From positions 1-33,188 of the forward strand of contig JAAYCJ010000118.1 in the NCBI GenBank assembly GCA_012729815.1: DNA of 33,188 bases, in the 5' to 3' direction. The notes beneath the pieces are model-generated. The model ran no database searches, had not been told where the DNA came from, and worked only from the letters and a program-made list of their open reading frames with translations. The stretch is from Phycisphaerae bacterium. Its GTDB lineage: Bacteria > Planctomycetota > Phycisphaerae > JAAYCJ01. This document shows positions 8,658 through 27,708 of this stretch, one piece after another. Each line of letters opens with the position of its first letter. Position 1 is the stretch's first letter. A program made the translations under genes and the position numbers.

Positions 8658-9461
8658 ATGAAGAACTTGCTGACCCGCCGAACGTCGATGCCTGGAACTG
8701 CCCTGCTGCTGGCCCTGATGGCGCTATGGGGTTGTGGCGGCCAGAACAGGAAGAGCGAACTGCGACTGATTCCTCCGGACCCGCAGAAGCTGCTGGTGAC
8801 AGCGGTGCGCGACGCGGACCCGGACGTGCGGTATCGATCGCTGGCCGAGTTCAGCGCGACCAAGGCCATCGGCGAGCCGTGGGCGGTCAAGGGGGTCGAG
8901 ACAATCGTGGCGACCGATCCGAATCCGCTGGTGCGGGCGTTGGGGCTGCACACGCTCGGACGGGTGGCGGACGGGCGGGTTTTGACCCAGGCGATCTATT
9001 CGATGAATGACAGCGATCCGCGGGTGCGGGCGGAGGCGGCATGGGCGCTGGCCCAAGTGCCGTACGCGGAGATCGAAAAGGCCCAGATGGTCGCGGAGAC
9101 TCGCGAGGCGATGGTCCGCGGGCTGCGCGATGAGGCGTTGGACGTCAAGATCCACTCGGCTTCGGGGCTGGGCGCGTTCCAGGATCGCGACGTGGTCTAT
9201 GCCCTGATCACCGCGCTGCGGGATTCGAATTTTTCGGTCCGCTACCACGCCGAGAAGAGCCTGATCGAACTGACGGGCAAGACGTTTCACTCCAATCCGG
9301 TCGCGTGGCTGGAGTGGTTCGACGCGGCGTCCGAGCCGTTCGCCAACGCGGGCCAGACCCCGCCCGAGTTGGTCAAGCCGAAGCAGAACGTGCTGGAGAA
9401 AAGCCGCGATCGGATCCAGCAGTGGTATCTGAACTGGCAGGGACCGGCGAAAGAGCAGTGA
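8658..9461 (+). CDS. HEAT-repeat lipoprotein
   Basis: A 267-residue protein with a lipoprotein signal peptide: basic residues to 8, a hydrophobic core 14-23 and LWGC with the lipidated cysteine at 26. The mature part to about residue 215 is built from helical HEAT/PBS-lyase-type repeats, visible as recurring D-x-x-x-x-VR motifs (DADPDVRYRS, DPNPLVRALG, DSDPRVRAEA, DSNFSVRYHA). It ends in a charged tail. Such repeats act as protein-binding scaffolds, here anchored to a membrane on the periplasmic side. It follows the RNase HI gene by 14 bases and is probably transcribed with it, though a functional link is not obvious. Confidence 0.82.
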   Translation: MKNLLTRRTSMPGTALLLALMALWGCGGQNRKSELRLIPPDPQKLLVTAVRDADPDVRYRSLAEFSATKAIGEPWAVKGVETIVATDPNPLVRALGLHTLGRVADGRVLTQAIYSMNDSDPRVRAEAAWALAQVPYAEIEKAQMVAETREAMVRGLRDEALDVKIHSASGLGAFQDRDVVYALITALRDSNFSVRYHAEKSLIELTGKTFHSNPVAWLEWFDAASEPFANAGQTPPELVKPKQNVLEKSRDRIQQWYLNWQGPAKEQ

Positions 9462-9494
9462 GAAGTCCGAAGCCAGGATGGAAAATGCGCGCGG

Positions 9495-9518
9495 CCGGAC
9501 GGTGAGGCAACCGTCCGG
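9495..9518. terminator. hairpin downstream of the HEAT-repeat lipoprotein gene
   Basis: CCGGACGGT (9495-9503) pairs with ACCGTCCGG (9510-9518) around a 6-base loop, giving a 9-bp GC-rich stem 33 bases after the stop. It could serve both the lipoprotein operon and the minus-strand small ORF. No strong T tract follows on either strand. Confidence 0.6.
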
Positions 9519-9543
9519 GGGTTCGAATTAAGGCAAGCGATCA

Positions 9544-9629: not shown

Positions 9630-9731
9630 TTAGCACATGGCGGCGTAGCAGGCCAGCGTCAGAATCGCCAGACGATACTTCCGCGAGAAGAAGTTCTGCA
9701 ACTCGACTTTCAGAAACGTTACGTTCAGCAT
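9630..9731 (-). CDS. possible 33-aa small protein
   Basis: ATG at 9731, 33 codons, TAA at 9630. The product is MLNVTFLKVELQ, a basic centre (FFSRKYR), then a hydrophobic tail LAILTLACYAAMC, so it could be an amphipathic or membrane-associated peptide. GGAAGAG (9737-9743) sits 5 bases upstream as a ribosome binding site. By my count 27 of 33 codons end in G or C, as expected for a real gene in this genome. A candidate sigma-54 promoter lies about 75 bases upstream. No homologue is known to me. It could also be a leader peptide or a chance ORF. Confidence 0.45.
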   Translation of the reverse strand: MLNVTFLKVELQNFFSRKYRLAILTLACYAAMC

Positions 9732-9803
9732 CTTTTCTCTTCCAGCATGGCCGCCTCGGAGGCGGCGTCCTGCGTGGGCATCCATCCGTGCCGCAAGGAC
9801 TTA

Positions 9804-9821
9804 ATGCAAACCCCATGCCGA
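9804..9821 (-). promoter_or_regulatory. candidate sigma-54 (RpoN) promoter
   Basis: On the minus strand the sequence reads TCGGCATGGGGTTTGCAT. The diagnostic GG (9818-9819) and GC (9806-9807) are exactly 10 bases apart. Against TGGCACG-N4-TTGCA it matches 9 of 11 fixed positions. The predicted start near 9794 gives a leader of about 62 bases to the 33-codon ORF. Confidence 0.5.
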
Positions 9822-9845
9822 AAAAGAGCCGATGGGACGTCCCTG

Positions 9846-9870
9846 TAACCACCGCTCTCGACGGTGGTTA
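9846..9870. repeat. 9-bp perfect inverted repeat upstream of the sigma-54 site
   Basis: TAACCACCG (9846-9854) and CGGTGGTTA (9862-9870) around a 7-base loop, centred about 64 bases upstream of the predicted minus-strand start. It could be an activator site or an RNA hairpin. Confidence 0.5.
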
Positions 9871-9877
9871 TGTATAG

Positions 9878-9912
9878 CGTCAGAAAGGGGCGGAATCAAC
9901 GAAATTCTGACG
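9878..9912. repeat. 8-bp inverted repeat, possible enhancer site
   Basis: CGTCAGAA (9878-9885) and TTCTGACG (9905-9912) are perfect complements 19 bases apart. The centre lies about 100 bases upstream of the predicted sigma-54 start, within the usual distance for bacterial enhancer-binding proteins (inference). Confidence 0.4.
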
Positions 9913-9994
9913 TTTCGGGGGGGAAACATGCGGTGCATTTTGGTAACACGGAAACGCAACATTCGCAACCGGACGATGCTGGCGGTCTCTTCAG

Positions 9995-10151
9995 GACGGC
10001 ACGGATCACGCGGATCACGCGGATCACGCGGAGGGCAGAAGACGCAAACTGAGAATACGAAGCAGCAAGACGCAGACGTGGCGCCGGCCCAGCGGAGCTT
10101 CTTTTCTTAAGTTCTGTCTTTTCCGCGTGTTCCGCGAGCTCCGTGCCGGTC
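9995..10151. repeat. imperfect inverted-repeat element built from 9-base units
   Basis: The left arm (9995-10023) contains three tandem copies of a 9-base CGGATCACG unit that continue to about 10030. The right arm (10121-10151) is its near reverse complement, with a few mismatches and one inserted base. About 95 bases lie between them. It sits just past the 3' end of the asparagine synthetase gene. Translations of such repeats produce the low-complexity ORFs seen here. A REP- or MITE-like mobile repeat is possible; no transposase is nearby. Confidence 0.5.
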
Positions 10152-10170: not shown

Positions 10171-12063
10171 TTATAGAATGGTCAGGAACTGATCGAGGAC
10201 CATCAGGGCCCAGAGTCGGTGGCCGTGGTCGTGGCGGCAGGCCAGGTGTTCCTGCATTAATCGCGTCAACGATTCGAAGCGGAATATGCCGGAGCGAATG
10301 AGACGGGAATCCGGGCTGAGGCGGTGTTCCATCTGGGAGCGCAGCGGTCCGTGGAGCCAATCGCCGACGGGAACGCCGAAGCCGCGTTTGGGACCGGCGA
10401 GGACTTCCGGAGGCAGATCGGCGGCGAAGGTGTCGCGGAGGATGCGTTTGCCGGCTTTGAGGCGGGTCCGCCAGGCCAGCGGGAGCGAGAGGGCAAATTC
10501 GACCAGTTCCCGGTCCAAAAGGGGCGATCGGGCCTCCAGACCGGCGGCCATCGAGGTGCGGTCGATCTTGACCAGCAGATCGTGGGGCAGATAGACCTGG
10601 TAGTCGGCCAGGTTGGCCCGGCGGACGGCGGACGGGACGTCGGTCCGGGCATCGACGGCTTGGGCGATCCAGTCGGGCCGGTCGGTCAGCGGATAGGTAA
10701 AGTCCGAGCCCAGCAGGTCGATCAGGGTCCGGTCGTCGAAGAGGCGGAGGAACGAGGCGTACTGCTCGGCTGGGCTGATCGGCAGGGCGCGGATCAGCCG
10801 CCAGAGCCGCGTACGGCTGGAGCGGAGTTCCGGTCCGGCTGAGGCCATAAGCCTGGCCAACGGGGCGGCTGACGGCCCCAGTCCCAGGCGATGGATGCTG
10901 GAAGCGATGGCCAGGGCGCGATAGCGGTCGTAGCCGGCGAAGGCTTCGTCACCACCGTCGCCGGTGAGCACGACCTTGACCTGCTCGGCGGCGAACCGGC
11001 AGATCAGACGGGTGGGCACGGCTGAACTGTCGGCGAAGGGTTCGTCGAAGGTTTCCACCACCTGCTCCAGCAGGCCGTCGAGGTCCGGTTTCAGAACGAT
11101 TTCGTGGTGATCGGTCTTGTACCGTTGGGCGGTCAGACGGGCCAGGCGGCGTTCGTCGTAACGGTCGTGGTCGAAGCCGACGGTGAACGTGCGGACCGGG
11201 TCGGAGGAGGCCTGGGCGGCAAGGGCGGTCACGACGGCTGAGTCCACGCCGCCGGAGAGCAGAACTCCGACCGGCACGTCGGCCACCAGGCGCTTGGCCA
11301 CGGCGCCGGAGAGGACGGACCGCACCCGATGGCGGGCCTGATCGTAGGTCCCGCTGAAGGCGGCAACGGCCGACCGGTAGTACCGCACCGGGACCAGTGC
11401 TGGAATACTGGACCGTCGAGCGCGGATAAGGGAAATCCGCAGGCAGTGCCCGGGCTCAAGCTTGCGGACATTGCTGAAGATCGTGGCCGGTGCGGGAATC
11501 CATCCGAACCGCAGGTAGTCGATGAGGGCGGGTCGGGAAAACTCGCCGTCAACACCCCCCTTCCGGATCGCCTTGGGTTCCGAGCCAAAGTACAGGCAGC
11601 CTTCGTGTTCGGCGTAGTACAGGGGCTTTTTGCCGAACCGGTCGACGGCGAGGAGAAGTTGGCTTCGCTGCGAGTCCAGCAGAGCCAGGGCGAAAAAGCC
11701 GTCGAGGCGGCTTAGGAACTCCAAGCCGAACTGCTCGTAGAGGTGGACAATGGGCTCGATGTCGCCGGCGGTCCGGAAGGCGTGGTTCGCGGAAAGCTGC
11801 TGGCGGAGGGCCTTGAAGTTGTAAATCTCGCCGTTGCAGACGACGCGGATGGTCTGGTCCTCGTTGGCGATGGGCTGATTGCCGGTCTGCAGATCAATAA
11901 TCGAGAGCCGACGGAAGGCCAGACCTTCGCGCCGGTCGTTGGTGAGGTAGAGGCCCTGGTTGTCGGGTCCGCGATGGAGCAATGCGCCGGCCATGGCGGC
12001 GAGGCGGTCGGGGTCGACCCGGCCATCGTCGGTCAGCGACACAATCCCGGCTATTCCGCACAT
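10171..12063 (-). CDS. asnB: asparagine synthetase, glutamine-hydrolysing (AsnB family)
   Basis: A 630-residue enzyme that makes asparagine from aspartate, ATP and glutamine-derived ammonia. The N-terminal class II amidotransferase begins with Cys2, exposed after Met removal, and shows HRGPDNQG (30-37), GEIYNF (78-83) and RFGKKPLYY (142-150). The synthetase domain has the ATP-pyrophosphatase loop SGGVDS (270-275) and a downstream GDGGDE motif. The start is ATG 12063, because Cys must be residue 2; a longer reading upstream to 12438 is not real. The length fits the bacterial family. Related amidotransferases modify cell-surface sugars in exosortase or capsule clusters, but no such genes adjoin here, so asparagine synthesis is the simpler call. 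Confidence 0.9.
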   Translation of the reverse strand: MCGIAGIVSLTDDGRVDPDRLAAMAGALLHRGPDNQGLYLTNDRREGLAFRRLSIIDLQTGNQPIANEDQTIRVVCNGEIYNFKALRQQLSANHAFRTAGDIEPIVHLYEQFGLEFLSRLDGFFALALLDSQRSQLLLAVDRFGKKPLYYAEHEGCLYFGSEPKAIRKGGVDGEFSRPALIDYLRFGWIPAPATIFSNVRKLEPGHCLRISLIRARRSSIPALVPVRYYRSAVAAFSGTYDQARHRVRSVLSGAVAKRLVADVPVGVLLSGGVDSAVVTALAAQASSDPVRTFTVGFDHDRYDERRLARLTAQRYKTDHHEIVLKPDLDGLLEQVVETFDEPFADSSAVPTRLICRFAAEQVKVVLTGDGGDEAFAGYDRYRALAIASSIHRLGLGPSAAPLARLMASAGPELRSSRTRLWRLIRALPISPAEQYASFLRLFDDRTLIDLLGSDFTYPLTDRPDWIAQAVDARTDVPSAVRRANLADYQVYLPHDLLVKIDRTSMAAGLEARSPLLDRELVEFALSLPLAWRTRLKAGKRILRDTFAADLPPEVLAGPKRGFGVPVGDWLHGPLRSQMEHRLSPDSRLIRSGIFRFESLTRLMQEHLACRHDHGHRLWALMVLDQFLTIL

Positions 12064-25422: not shown

Positions 25423-25449
25423 GATCCGATGGCCAAAGGAGCCGAAGCG

Positions 25450-27708
25450 ATGACATCGAACGTGGACAATCTGAGGCAGAGCATTGCGACACTGACGGAC
25501 CTGGCGCGTGGGGCGGAACCGACGGACCTGCCCCAATTGGCCAAGATGCATGAACACATCCAATCGCTTGGACGGTTGGGAGCCGAGTTGCCCGAGAACG
25601 CGCGGGAGCTGTTCCAGACCCTGTGCCGGCAGGTCGCCGACGAGGATGAGCGGATCATCCTCGACGAGTGCGCCGACCCGGTGGCGGCCCTGGAGCGGAT
25701 ACGCCGTGCGGTGGAGCGTCTGGGCGAGCTGGCATTCGACGAGAGCGGCGCCGCCGACGTGGCGCTGCTTGCGGAATTGGTGGAGGGAATGAAGGCGACG
25801 GCGGCCGAGGCGCCCGCTCCGGAACCGGCGGCTCCGGCGGCTGAGGCGCCCTCGCCCGGACCGGCGGCTCCGACTGAAGCGCCCAAAGCATTCGAGGACT
25901 TCCAGCAGGAACCGCTGCTGATTTCGGAACAGGAGTTTGAGTACATCAACAGCTTCCTGTCGGAGTGCCAGGAGCACATCGAGAACGTCGAGGGCGTGCT
26001 GCTGTCGCTGGAGCAGAACCCGGACGACCTGGACAAGGTCAACGAGCTGTTCCGGCCGTTCCATACGATCAAGGGAATGGCCGGTTTCCTGAATCTGCGG
26101 GACATCAACGCCCTGACGCACGCGGCGGAAAACCTGCTCGACCTGGCCCGCAAGGGCAAGCTTCAGCTTCGGCCGCAGACCATCGATCTGATCTTTGAGA
26201 CGCTGGACGTGCTGAAGGTGCAGGTCGAGATGGTGGGGCAGTACGTGGCGGCGCCGAACGGCCAGCCGGTGCCCCAGCCTCCGATCGGCGCCCTGCTGTA
26301 CCGGATCCACGAGGCGGCGCAGGATCGTCCGATATCGCCCGCCGCCGCTGGTTCATCCGGCGGCGACCGACGGCGCCTGGGCGAGATTCTGAGCGAGGAT
26401 GAGGGCACCTCGGCCGCCCTGGTCGGCTTTGCCCTGGAACAGCAGCGAGGCCCGATGGCGGGCAAGCAGATCGGACAGATCCTGACCGAAACCGGTGCGG
26501 CCACGGCGCGTGAAGTCGGCCAGGCCCTGCGGAAGCAGCGGACCCACCAGGAGACGTCGATCCGGGTGGATACGGTCAAGCTGGACAACCTGGTCAACAT
26601 GGTGGGCGAACTGGTGATCGCCCAGGCCCAGGTGGCCCAGCACGATTCGCAACGGAACAGCGGCCGGACCAGCGCCCTGGTCGAACAGGTCTCCAAGATC
26701 ACACGGGACGTCCAGGAGATCGCGATGTCGCTGCGGATGATCCCGATCGCCCAGACGTTCCACAAGATGGCCCGGGTCAGCCGGGACATCGCCCGCAAAG
26801 CGAGCAAGGTCATCGACTTCATCATTGAAGGCGAAGAGACAGAACTGGACAAGAACGTCATTCAGGAGATCTCGGACCCGCTGCTCCACATGGTCCGCAA
26901 CGCGGTGGACCACGGCGTCGAGGCGCCGGACAAGCGGGCGACTCTGGGCAAGCCGCAGAAGGGCATAGTCAAGATCAGCGCCTACCACCAGGGCGGCAAT
27001 ATCGTGATCGAGGTCAGCGACGACGGCCGCGGCCTGGACAAGGACGTGCTGCTCAAGAAGGGTATTGAGAAGGGCCTGGTGGCCCCGGACGCCCAGCTCT
27101 CCGAGCAGCAGATTTACCAGTTGGTCATGGCCCCCGGTTTCTCGACGGCTGAGAAGGTCACCGACATTTCCGGCCGCGGAGTCGGGATGGACGTGGTCAA
27201 GCGCAACATCGAGGGTCTTCGCGGCAAGGTGGAAATCCAGTCGGTCAAGGGCCAGGGCACCACGTTCATCATCCGCCTGCCGCTGACGTTGGCGGTGATC
27301 GACGGCATGGTGGTTCGGGCGGGCAGCCAGAAGTTCATCATCCCGACGCTGACGATCCAGCAGGCCCTGGTGCCGACGCGCGAGCAGATCACCACCGTGC
27401 AGGGACGCGGGCGGATGCTGAATTTGCGCGACAAGCTCTATCCGCTGATCGCGCTGGGCCAGGCGTTCAACATCCCGGAAGCGGTCGCCGAACCGACCGA
27501 AGGGATGGTGGTGATCCTGCAGGCCGACAGCCAGACCTACGGGATCGTGCTCGACGATCTGCTGGGCCAGCAGCAGGTGGTGATCAAGACCCTGGGCAAC
27601 CATTTCCGCGAGATCAAGGGCATCAGCGGCGGGGCGATCCTGGGCGACGGAAGCATCGGGCTGATCATCGAGCCGGGCGGCCTGATGGAACTGCACCAGG
27701 CCGCGTGA
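25450..27708 (+). CDS. cheA: CheA chemotaxis histidine kinase with unusual linker
   Basis: A 752-residue kinase. An N-terminal helical region (about 1-150, with a Pro/Ala-rich stretch) precedes an HPt domain with the phosphorylated H205 in FHTIKGM. Instead of a standard CheY-binding P2 domain, residues about 305-365 hold two similar units, RRLGEILSEDEG...ALEQQ and KQIGQILTETGA...ALRKQ, which resemble the N domain of GspE/MshE ATPases. The dimerisation helices, ATP domain (N484 in the N box, DDGRG 524-528, GRGVGMD 575-581) and a CheW-like domain (about 617-752) follow. ATG 25450 has AAAGGAG 8 bases upstream; ATG 25429 is the alternative. It ends the plus-strand chemotaxis unit. Confidence 0.93.
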   Translation: MTSNVDNLRQSIATLTDLARGAEPTDLPQLAKMHEHIQSLGRLGAELPENARELFQTLCRQVADEDERIILDECADPVAALERIRRAVERLGELAFDESGAADVALLAELVEGMKATAAEAPAPEPAAPAAEAPSPGPAAPTEAPKAFEDFQQEPLLISEQEFEYINSFLSECQEHIENVEGVLLSLEQNPDDLDKVNELFRPFHTIKGMAGFLNLRDINALTHAAENLLDLARKGKLQLRPQTIDLIFETLDVLKVQVEMVGQYVAAPNGQPVPQPPIGALLYRIHEAAQDRPISPAAAGSSGGDRRRLGEILSEDEGTSAALVGFALEQQRGPMAGKQIGQILTETGAATAREVGQALRKQRTHQETSIRVDTVKLDNLVNMVGELVIAQAQVAQHDSQRNSGRTSALVEQVSKITRDVQEIAMSLRMIPIAQTFHKMARVSRDIARKASKVIDFIIEGEETELDKNVIQEISDPLLHMVRNAVDHGVEAPDKRATLGKPQKGIVKISAYHQGGNIVIEVSDDGRGLDKDVLLKKGIEKGLVAPDAQLSEQQIYQLVMAPGFSTAEKVTDISGRGVGMDVVKRNIEGLRGKVEIQSVKGQGTTFIIRLPLTLAVIDGMVVRAGSQKFIIPTLTIQQALVPTREQITTVQGRGRMLNLRDKLYPLIALGQAFNIPEAVAEPTEGMVVILQADSQTYGIVLDDLLGQQQVVIKTLGNHFREIKGISGGAILGDGSIGLIIEPGGLMELHQAA

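Follow-up and report, generated by a model that had tools for sequence, protein, structure and literature searches.

The window, which is the whole stretch of 33,188 nucleotides analysed here, contains an intergenic gap bounded by a HEAT-repeat gene that ends at 9461 (plus strand) and an asparagine-synthase-like gene that ends at 10171 (minus strand). Within this gap, we predict a sigma-54 (RpoN) promoter on the minus strand at 9804-9821. Its sequence, TCGGCATGGGGTTTGCAT when read from 9821 to 9804, carries the -24 GG at 9819-9818 and the -12 GC at 9807-9806 with the exact GG-to-GC spacing (N10), and it departs from TGGCACG-N4-TTGCW at just two positions, the first T and the second C in the TGGCACG part, giving 9 of 11 fixed bases, or 10 of 12 when the final W is counted. 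The C of the -12 element, at 9806, puts the predicted start of transcription at about 9794 (minus strand). An earlier sequence-only reading had described a minus-strand GG-N10-GC element with 9 of 11 fixed positions and exact spacing, a start near 9794 and a gap with only a 33-codon open reading frame (ORF) downstream on that strand. The sequence bears out each of these points: the gap is real, and the ORF is the one at 9731-9630. This ORF, the micropeptide gene MLNVTFLKVELQNFFSRKYRLAILTLACYAAMC (9630-9731, minus strand, 33 codons), ends in TAA and is preceded, 5 nt before its ATG, by a Shine-Dalgarno-like GGAAGAG (9737-9743, minus strand); a GGAG-type motif was also found in the leaders of its family by a blind motif search.

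Upstream of the promoter, the palindrome TGTTTC-CCCCCC-GAAACG at 9911-9928 (minus strand), centred about 126 nt above the predicted start, is a predicted enhancer. Between the two lies a perfect 9-bp inverted repeat, TAACCACCG-N7-CGGTGGTTA (9846-9870), and just upstream of the -24 element lies the palindrome GGGACGTCCC (9834-9843); as enhancer-like elements, these inverted repeats (9834-9870) were rejected because they are not common to the nearest relative, L107. Three overlapping copies of CGGATCACGCGGA with a period of 9 are found in the same intergenic gap at 10002-10032. The space between the convergent genes, past the end of the ORF, contains an imperfect hairpin with the core CCGGACGGT...ACCGTCCGG (9484-9529), which is possibly the 3' end of the transcript, though it has no T-run. 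A canonical terminator and a sigma-70-type site were both sought in the gap and neither was found, and Rfam gave no RNA family match in the window except a tRNA.

Taken alone, the promoter match cannot carry the argument. The window contains 2 matches with at most 2 mismatches, against a mean of 5.0 in shuffled sequences, so that the match is at chance level (about 5 expected at the window's composition) and was rejected as self-sufficient evidence. Since the lone site does not rise above chance, the window sequence by itself proves nothing; the predicted promoter becomes significant only through comparison with homologues.

The micropeptide family

When about 100 relatives were searched with the ORF, about 30 of them proved to have tiny ORFs that share its C-terminus (nearest at E 2e-5); as a negative control, a wrong-frame ORF used as the query in the same kind of search reached E 0.15 at best. 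With a 24-sequence profile, 284 of 397 sampled Phycisphaerae genomes matched at E<=0.1, and with an 82-sequence profile 284 of the 397 matched at E<=0.01, nearly always with one copy in either case. No match of comparable strength was found in planctomycete genomes outside the class (two samples, overlapping sets). Two clear hits were seen in few genomes, namely G048 (C18, C31), whose copies look identical and are perhaps an assembly duplicate, and G231 (C88, C74), whose copies differ.

The family was also sought blindly: about 85,000 species genomes were scanned with a degenerate DNA pattern for the C-terminus, which gave at least 80 loci. Among the 80 loci listed, 79 have a real stop codon; a Comamonas hit has TGG in place of the stop and is a false match. 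Nearly all of the listed loci bear planctomycete names, most of them Phycisphaerae, Phycisphaerales or Sedimentisphaerales, and a few of the listed planctomycete loci carry other submitter labels; the assignment to the class Phycisphaerae was read from these labels. All 101 members that were extracted end in Cys-stop, though the profile searches contained no stop codon. Pfam, NCBIfam and PDB yielded no relative of the family, and a DUF2964 match of 1 of the 82 members (3e-4) was taken as chance. A literature search found no description of the gene, subscription literature being outside its reach. From these sequence comparisons, we conclude that the ORF is a member of an undescribed family of 20-35-residue proteins, which seems to be confined to the class Phycisphaerae and of which most members seem to carry one copy. 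The gene has probably remained unrecognised so far because gene finders skip such short genes.

The family is under selection as a protein. Over 40 independent pairs, pN/pS was 0.17 in the ORF frame versus 1.66 and 2.30 in the other frames, which indicates purifying selection on the micropeptide reading frame. The pairs were picked by protein similarity, and the value is therefore biased low; the other frames of the same pairs give the contrast. The 158 distinct sequences are 20-35 residues long (median 31), and every one of them ends in A-[LM]-C-stop, that is, with Cys last, Leu or Met second-last and Ala third-last, all three stop codons being in use across the set; Tyr or Phe nearly always occupies the fifth-last position. 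None of the 158 carries a charge in its last 13 residues, whose mean Kyte-Doolittle value is 2.6, and in 156 of them the preceding part has a net positive charge. An uncharged hydrophobic helix beside positive residues is the sequence pattern of a single-helix small membrane protein, and the family fits it. AlphaFold2 gave one helix over residues 3-32 (pLDDT 78), which is weak evidence because most such peptides would be modelled so. A lipobox, with Gly, Ala or Ser at position -1 of the Cys, is absent: this residue is Leu or Met in all 158 sequences, and a lipoprotein signal peptide is ruled out by this rule.

Predicted promoter and enhancer across the family

To find promoters among the homologues, we took 96 non-redundant members that are not of the FYYxxWxPF (Sedimentisphaerales) type and applied expectation-maximisation, with no sigma-54 prior, to the 180 nt above each. 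The motif obtained was.tGGCACGg.ggTTGca., with a log-likelihood of 342 versus 60 for shuffled sequences; at 8 bits or more, it occurred upstream of 68 of the 96 members, against 1 of 94 regions taken from downstream and 2 of 96 shuffles. About 30% of these members (28/96) are without the motif at this threshold. The window promoter scores 18.4 bits and ranks 16th among the 96 loci, its site having been included in the training set, and the same-family genome has GGCATG-N4-TTGCATT in common with it. The C at -12 is frequently T or A in the promoters of relatives. The lack of an rpoN gene, or of a conserved GG/GC pair in close relatives, would have refuted the promoter as it was first read; the genome has rpoN (E 3e-63), as do 374 of 397 Phycisphaerae genomes in all, and the pair is conserved in the near relative and also class-wide, where the C is less strict.

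Applied to the 55 FYYxxWxPF-type members, most of which are Sedimentisphaerales, the same blind method gave the motif TTTcGGtTATAATA. The listed sequences of this type have a TTGCTT-like -35 element at about the usual spacing, and a sigma-54-like site at 8 bits is found in only 2 of the 55, while rpoN is retained in these sigma-70-type lineages (families f16, f20 and f22). At least two members labelled Sedimentisphaerales (L249 and L262) keep strong sigma-54 sites; the promoter change would therefore have occurred inside or beside this order. As judged from these motifs, one lineage has kept the peptide and changed its promoter class from sigma-54 to sigma-70, the direction being an inference from how much more widely the sigma-54 type is spread, without a tree. 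Some sigma-70-type leaders (L106, L108, L121, L131, L230 and others) share a motif around ATGGCTTCGGTCATGGGGG, and other leaders of this type have a small hairpin, TTCTGGCTTCCAGAAGGG, over the ribosome-binding site. These shared elements have no Rfam match; the motif or hairpin may be a translational control element.

A second blind search, over the 220 nt above 65 sigma-54 sites of the family, returned the motif TGTTGC.t....GCAACATc (log-likelihood 352 versus 62 for shuffled sequences). The palindrome TGTTGC-N6-GCAACA, at 10 or more of its 12 positions, was present at 52 of the 72 loci that have a good sigma-54 site and at 6 of the 33 that do not; in the controls, it was present at 0 of 72 sigma-70-type loci, in 2 of 177 shuffles and in 7 of 177 downstream regions. 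The sets behind these counts (72, 33, 72 and 177 loci) were not fully de-duplicated. The palindrome lies mostly 90-165 nt above the promoter. The window's own palindrome matches this consensus at only 9 of 12 positions. L107, which is the only other member from the same family, has TGTTTC-ATTTTT-GAAACG at the same place, both arms having changed together in the two (a co-varied variant), and in the alignment of the two upstream regions the enhancer, promoter and ORF stand out as islands in diverged DNA. The variant is the sole match with at most one mismatch in 33 kb, where 0.09 would be expected; this result is supporting rather than independent because the variant was chosen after it had been seen. 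By sequence, TGTTTC-N6-GAAACG at 9928-9911 qualifies as a predicted activator binding site (enhancer), such a site being expected some 80-200 nt upstream, and its support in the window rests on a variant shared with one relative.

The sequence-only reading had suggested a regulated RpoN promoter with a small protein or small RNA as its output. This suggestion is supported by the rpoN gene, the conserved coding ORF, the blind promoter motif and the palindromic enhancer. The present finding goes beyond it: the chance level of the lone site, the class-wide ORF family and the enhancer had all been missed.

Gene neighbourhood and candidate activator

No partner of the micropeptide gene is conserved in its neighbourhood across the class. 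The neighbours that recur are lineage-specific only, namely an ADP-heptose-epimerase-like gene, which lies downstream at about 20 loci, most of them sigma-70-type, and a Fur-like gene, which lies just downstream and is mostly convergent at about 17 loci (both named from sequence), and a conserved neighbour was rejected as a clue to function. In the absence of a class-wide neighbour, the micropeptide gene would act alone or with a distant partner.

In the window's genome, other consensus sigma-54 sites precede FlgB- and FlgF/G-like flagellar genes, and further sites lie before a glutamine-synthetase-like gene and dnaK (all names from sequence). The window also encodes a CheA-type chemotaxis kinase (25429-27708, plus strand) with Hpt, H-kinase_dim, HATPase and CheW domains; this, together with sigma-54-driven flagellar genes elsewhere in the genome, indicates that the organism is probably motile. 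A C4 zinc ribbon gene of the DUF164/Zn_ribbon_9 family (PF02591; 7152-7910, plus strand) lies 2 kb from the RpoN promoter. Helicobacter FlgZ/HP0958, of the same family, prevents RpoN turnover (PMC3372290); the proximity seen here is possibly a coincidence.

Three genomes were scanned for a second target of the enhancer, and no hit had both a good enhancer and a promoter equal in strength to that of the micropeptide gene. As far as three genomes can tell, this absence hints at a dedicated activator. The window's genome (G000) encodes seven strong PF00158 proteins and so does possess AAA+ sigma-54 activators. When three genomes were compared, two activator ortholog pairs, G000_C174/G033_C12 and G000_C115/G033_C3, were present in both sigma-54-type genomes and had no close ortholog in the sigma-70-type genome. 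The former is probably flagellar because it adjoins the FlgB promoter site. At L423:5610-5678, just upstream of the NtrC-type activator gene G033_C3, lie TGTTGA-N6-TCAACA and TGTTGT-N6-GCCACA, an arrangement that by analogy resembles autoregulation; no such palindrome-like sites were found for G000_C115. We regard G000_C115/G033_C3 as the best candidate for the activator, which from three genomes is a lead only.

Discussion

We propose that the site at 9804-9821 is the promoter of a one-gene, enhancer-dependent sigma-54 unit whose product is a membrane micropeptide with a single helix, which most likely regulates a membrane protein; we consider this reading probable, with some room for doubt. 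Its supports, namely the promoter, the enhancer, coding selection, class-wide single-copy conservation, the strict C-terminus and the promoter switch, were all established at the level of sequence comparison. In the proposed scheme, a bacterial enhancer-binding protein (AAA+ activator), whose identity is inferred, would bind the palindrome at 9928-9911 and, by DNA looping, open the sigma-54 RNA polymerase waiting at 9821-9804. The transcript from about 9794 would be translated into a 33-residue peptide with a positive N-terminal part, an uncharged hydrophobic C-terminal helix and an Ala-Met-Cys end; transcription and expression are inferred here, there being no expression data. The peptide would then probably insert in the inner membrane with its N-terminus inside, an inferred step whose orientation is suggested by the charge pattern. 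At 13 residues, the hydrophobic stretch is on the short side for crossing the whole membrane, and the helix could also be only half inserted. In the membrane, the peptide may be a small regulator of a membrane protein or one of its subunits, with the free Ala-[Leu/Met]-Cys at the C-terminus of the peptide as a contact or reactive site. Since no conserved partner was found, the role as a membrane regulator is an inference from size and hydrophobicity. A bolder version of this proposal, which we consider unlikely while keeping it in view, would make the product a class-defining core micropeptide with a chemically active invariant Cys end and an activator of its own controlling essentially only this gene; the active Cys end would then be lipid- or thiol-modified, or be cut off as a class-wide signal.

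Several other explanations have to be weighed. The peptide could be the precursor of an exported signal, cut in or at the membrane to a short hydrophobic Cys-ended peptide, or a Cys-modified lipoprotein-like peptide: its K/R n-region, h-region and terminal Cys resemble a signal peptide cut off at the cysteine, and hydrophobic-peptide pheromones have a similar build. We think this distinctly unlikely, since all 158 sequences have Leu or Met at -1, where a lipobox needs Gly, Ala or Ser, the C-terminus is fixed whereas pheromones diversify between species, and no conserved receptor or exporter gene lies nearby. Still more doubtful is a membrane-active, toxin-like peptide (type I toxin-antitoxin, DinQ/TisB) that, released under stress by the sigma-54 switch, would act by depolarising or arresting the cell. 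Type I toxins usually have a patchy distribution, often occur in several copies and come with an antisense RNA, whereas the micropeptide is present in one copy per genome throughout the class with an invariant C-terminus, and no RNA family was matched in Rfam; the consensus-like sigma-70 promoter of one lineage would also be hardly tolerable for a toxin without an antitoxin. A toxin role is nevertheless not excluded, as the micropeptide shares its size, its positive N-terminal part and its uncharged hydrophobic helix with type I toxins and DinQ-like peptides (PMC3567139; reviewed in PMC8309996), and its control would be of a tight, stress type.

It is also conceivable that the promoter match in the window is accidental and that the gene uses an unseen promoter, given that the lone match is not above chance and that 28 of the 96 relatives outside the Sedimentisphaerales type are without the motif at 8 bits. 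We find this very improbable: the position of the site is that of the promoters of homologues, the blind motif gives it 18.4 bits, the same-family genome shares it and the enhancer lies above it, and no sigma-70-type site was found in the gap. Least credible of all is a transcript that is itself the product, whether as a regulatory RNA or as a leader that controls a neighbouring gene, with the ORF secondary: the gene does sit alone with inverted repeats around it, and sigma-70-type members have leader motifs in common, but selection acts at the protein level (pN/pS 0.17), the leaders are not conserved, the gene that follows is convergent in the window and is not the same one in other lineages, and Rfam gave no match.

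The small membrane regulator that we favour has parallels in enterobacterial proteins of the MgrB/MgtR/YohP type, which likewise have fewer than 50 residues, one hydrophobic helix and regulated expression. Of these, MgrB inhibits the PhoQ sensor by feedback (PMC2789325), MgtR promotes MgtC degradation (PMC6813294) and YohP is a 27-residue membrane protein (PMC7549839). The micropeptide differs from these in that no sequence relation was found, in its invariant Ala-[Leu/Met]-Cys C-terminus, in its predicted control by sigma-54 and an enhancer in most lineages and in its apparent confinement to one class. Its regulatory region is built like those of other enhancer-dependent sigma-54 units, with GG-N10-GC and a palindrome whose TGT and ACA half-sites are 12 bp apart. 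TGT/ACA half-sites with 10-12 bp spacers are a known form of sigma-54 enhancer (PMC6615313), and spacers of 9, 11 or 12 bp occur between half-sites of sigma-54 activators (PMC4641369). In contrast to known sigma-54 units, the micropeptide is the only recognised output here. TGTTGC-N6-GCAACA was not found in the text of sigma-54 regulon papers, as far as this text was available and motif figures aside. A 2025 sigma-54 survey of bacteria (PMC12316311), in the part available to us, concerns the same sigma factor and has flagella and chaperones among its targets, as in this genome; small proteins are unmentioned in the available main text. Next to the planctomycete sigma-54 regulon covered there, the micropeptide gene stands apart in having no curated family.

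The micropeptide is thus a new family among sigma-54-controlled genes and small membrane proteins, with an unusual invariant Cys end and a class-wide reach. It adds a probable core gene of a whole class, together with its predicted promoter and enhancer; the gene lies outside curated families and is so short that gene finders can overlook it. That so divergent a class keeps a strict Ala-[Leu/Met]-Cys end suggests that the peptide has a specific molecular task. The swap from sigma-54 to sigma-70, with the peptide kept and rpoN present, would be a clear natural case of promoter-class switching, and the enhancer motif and candidate activator may offer a handle on the little-studied sigma-54 network of the Planctomycetota.
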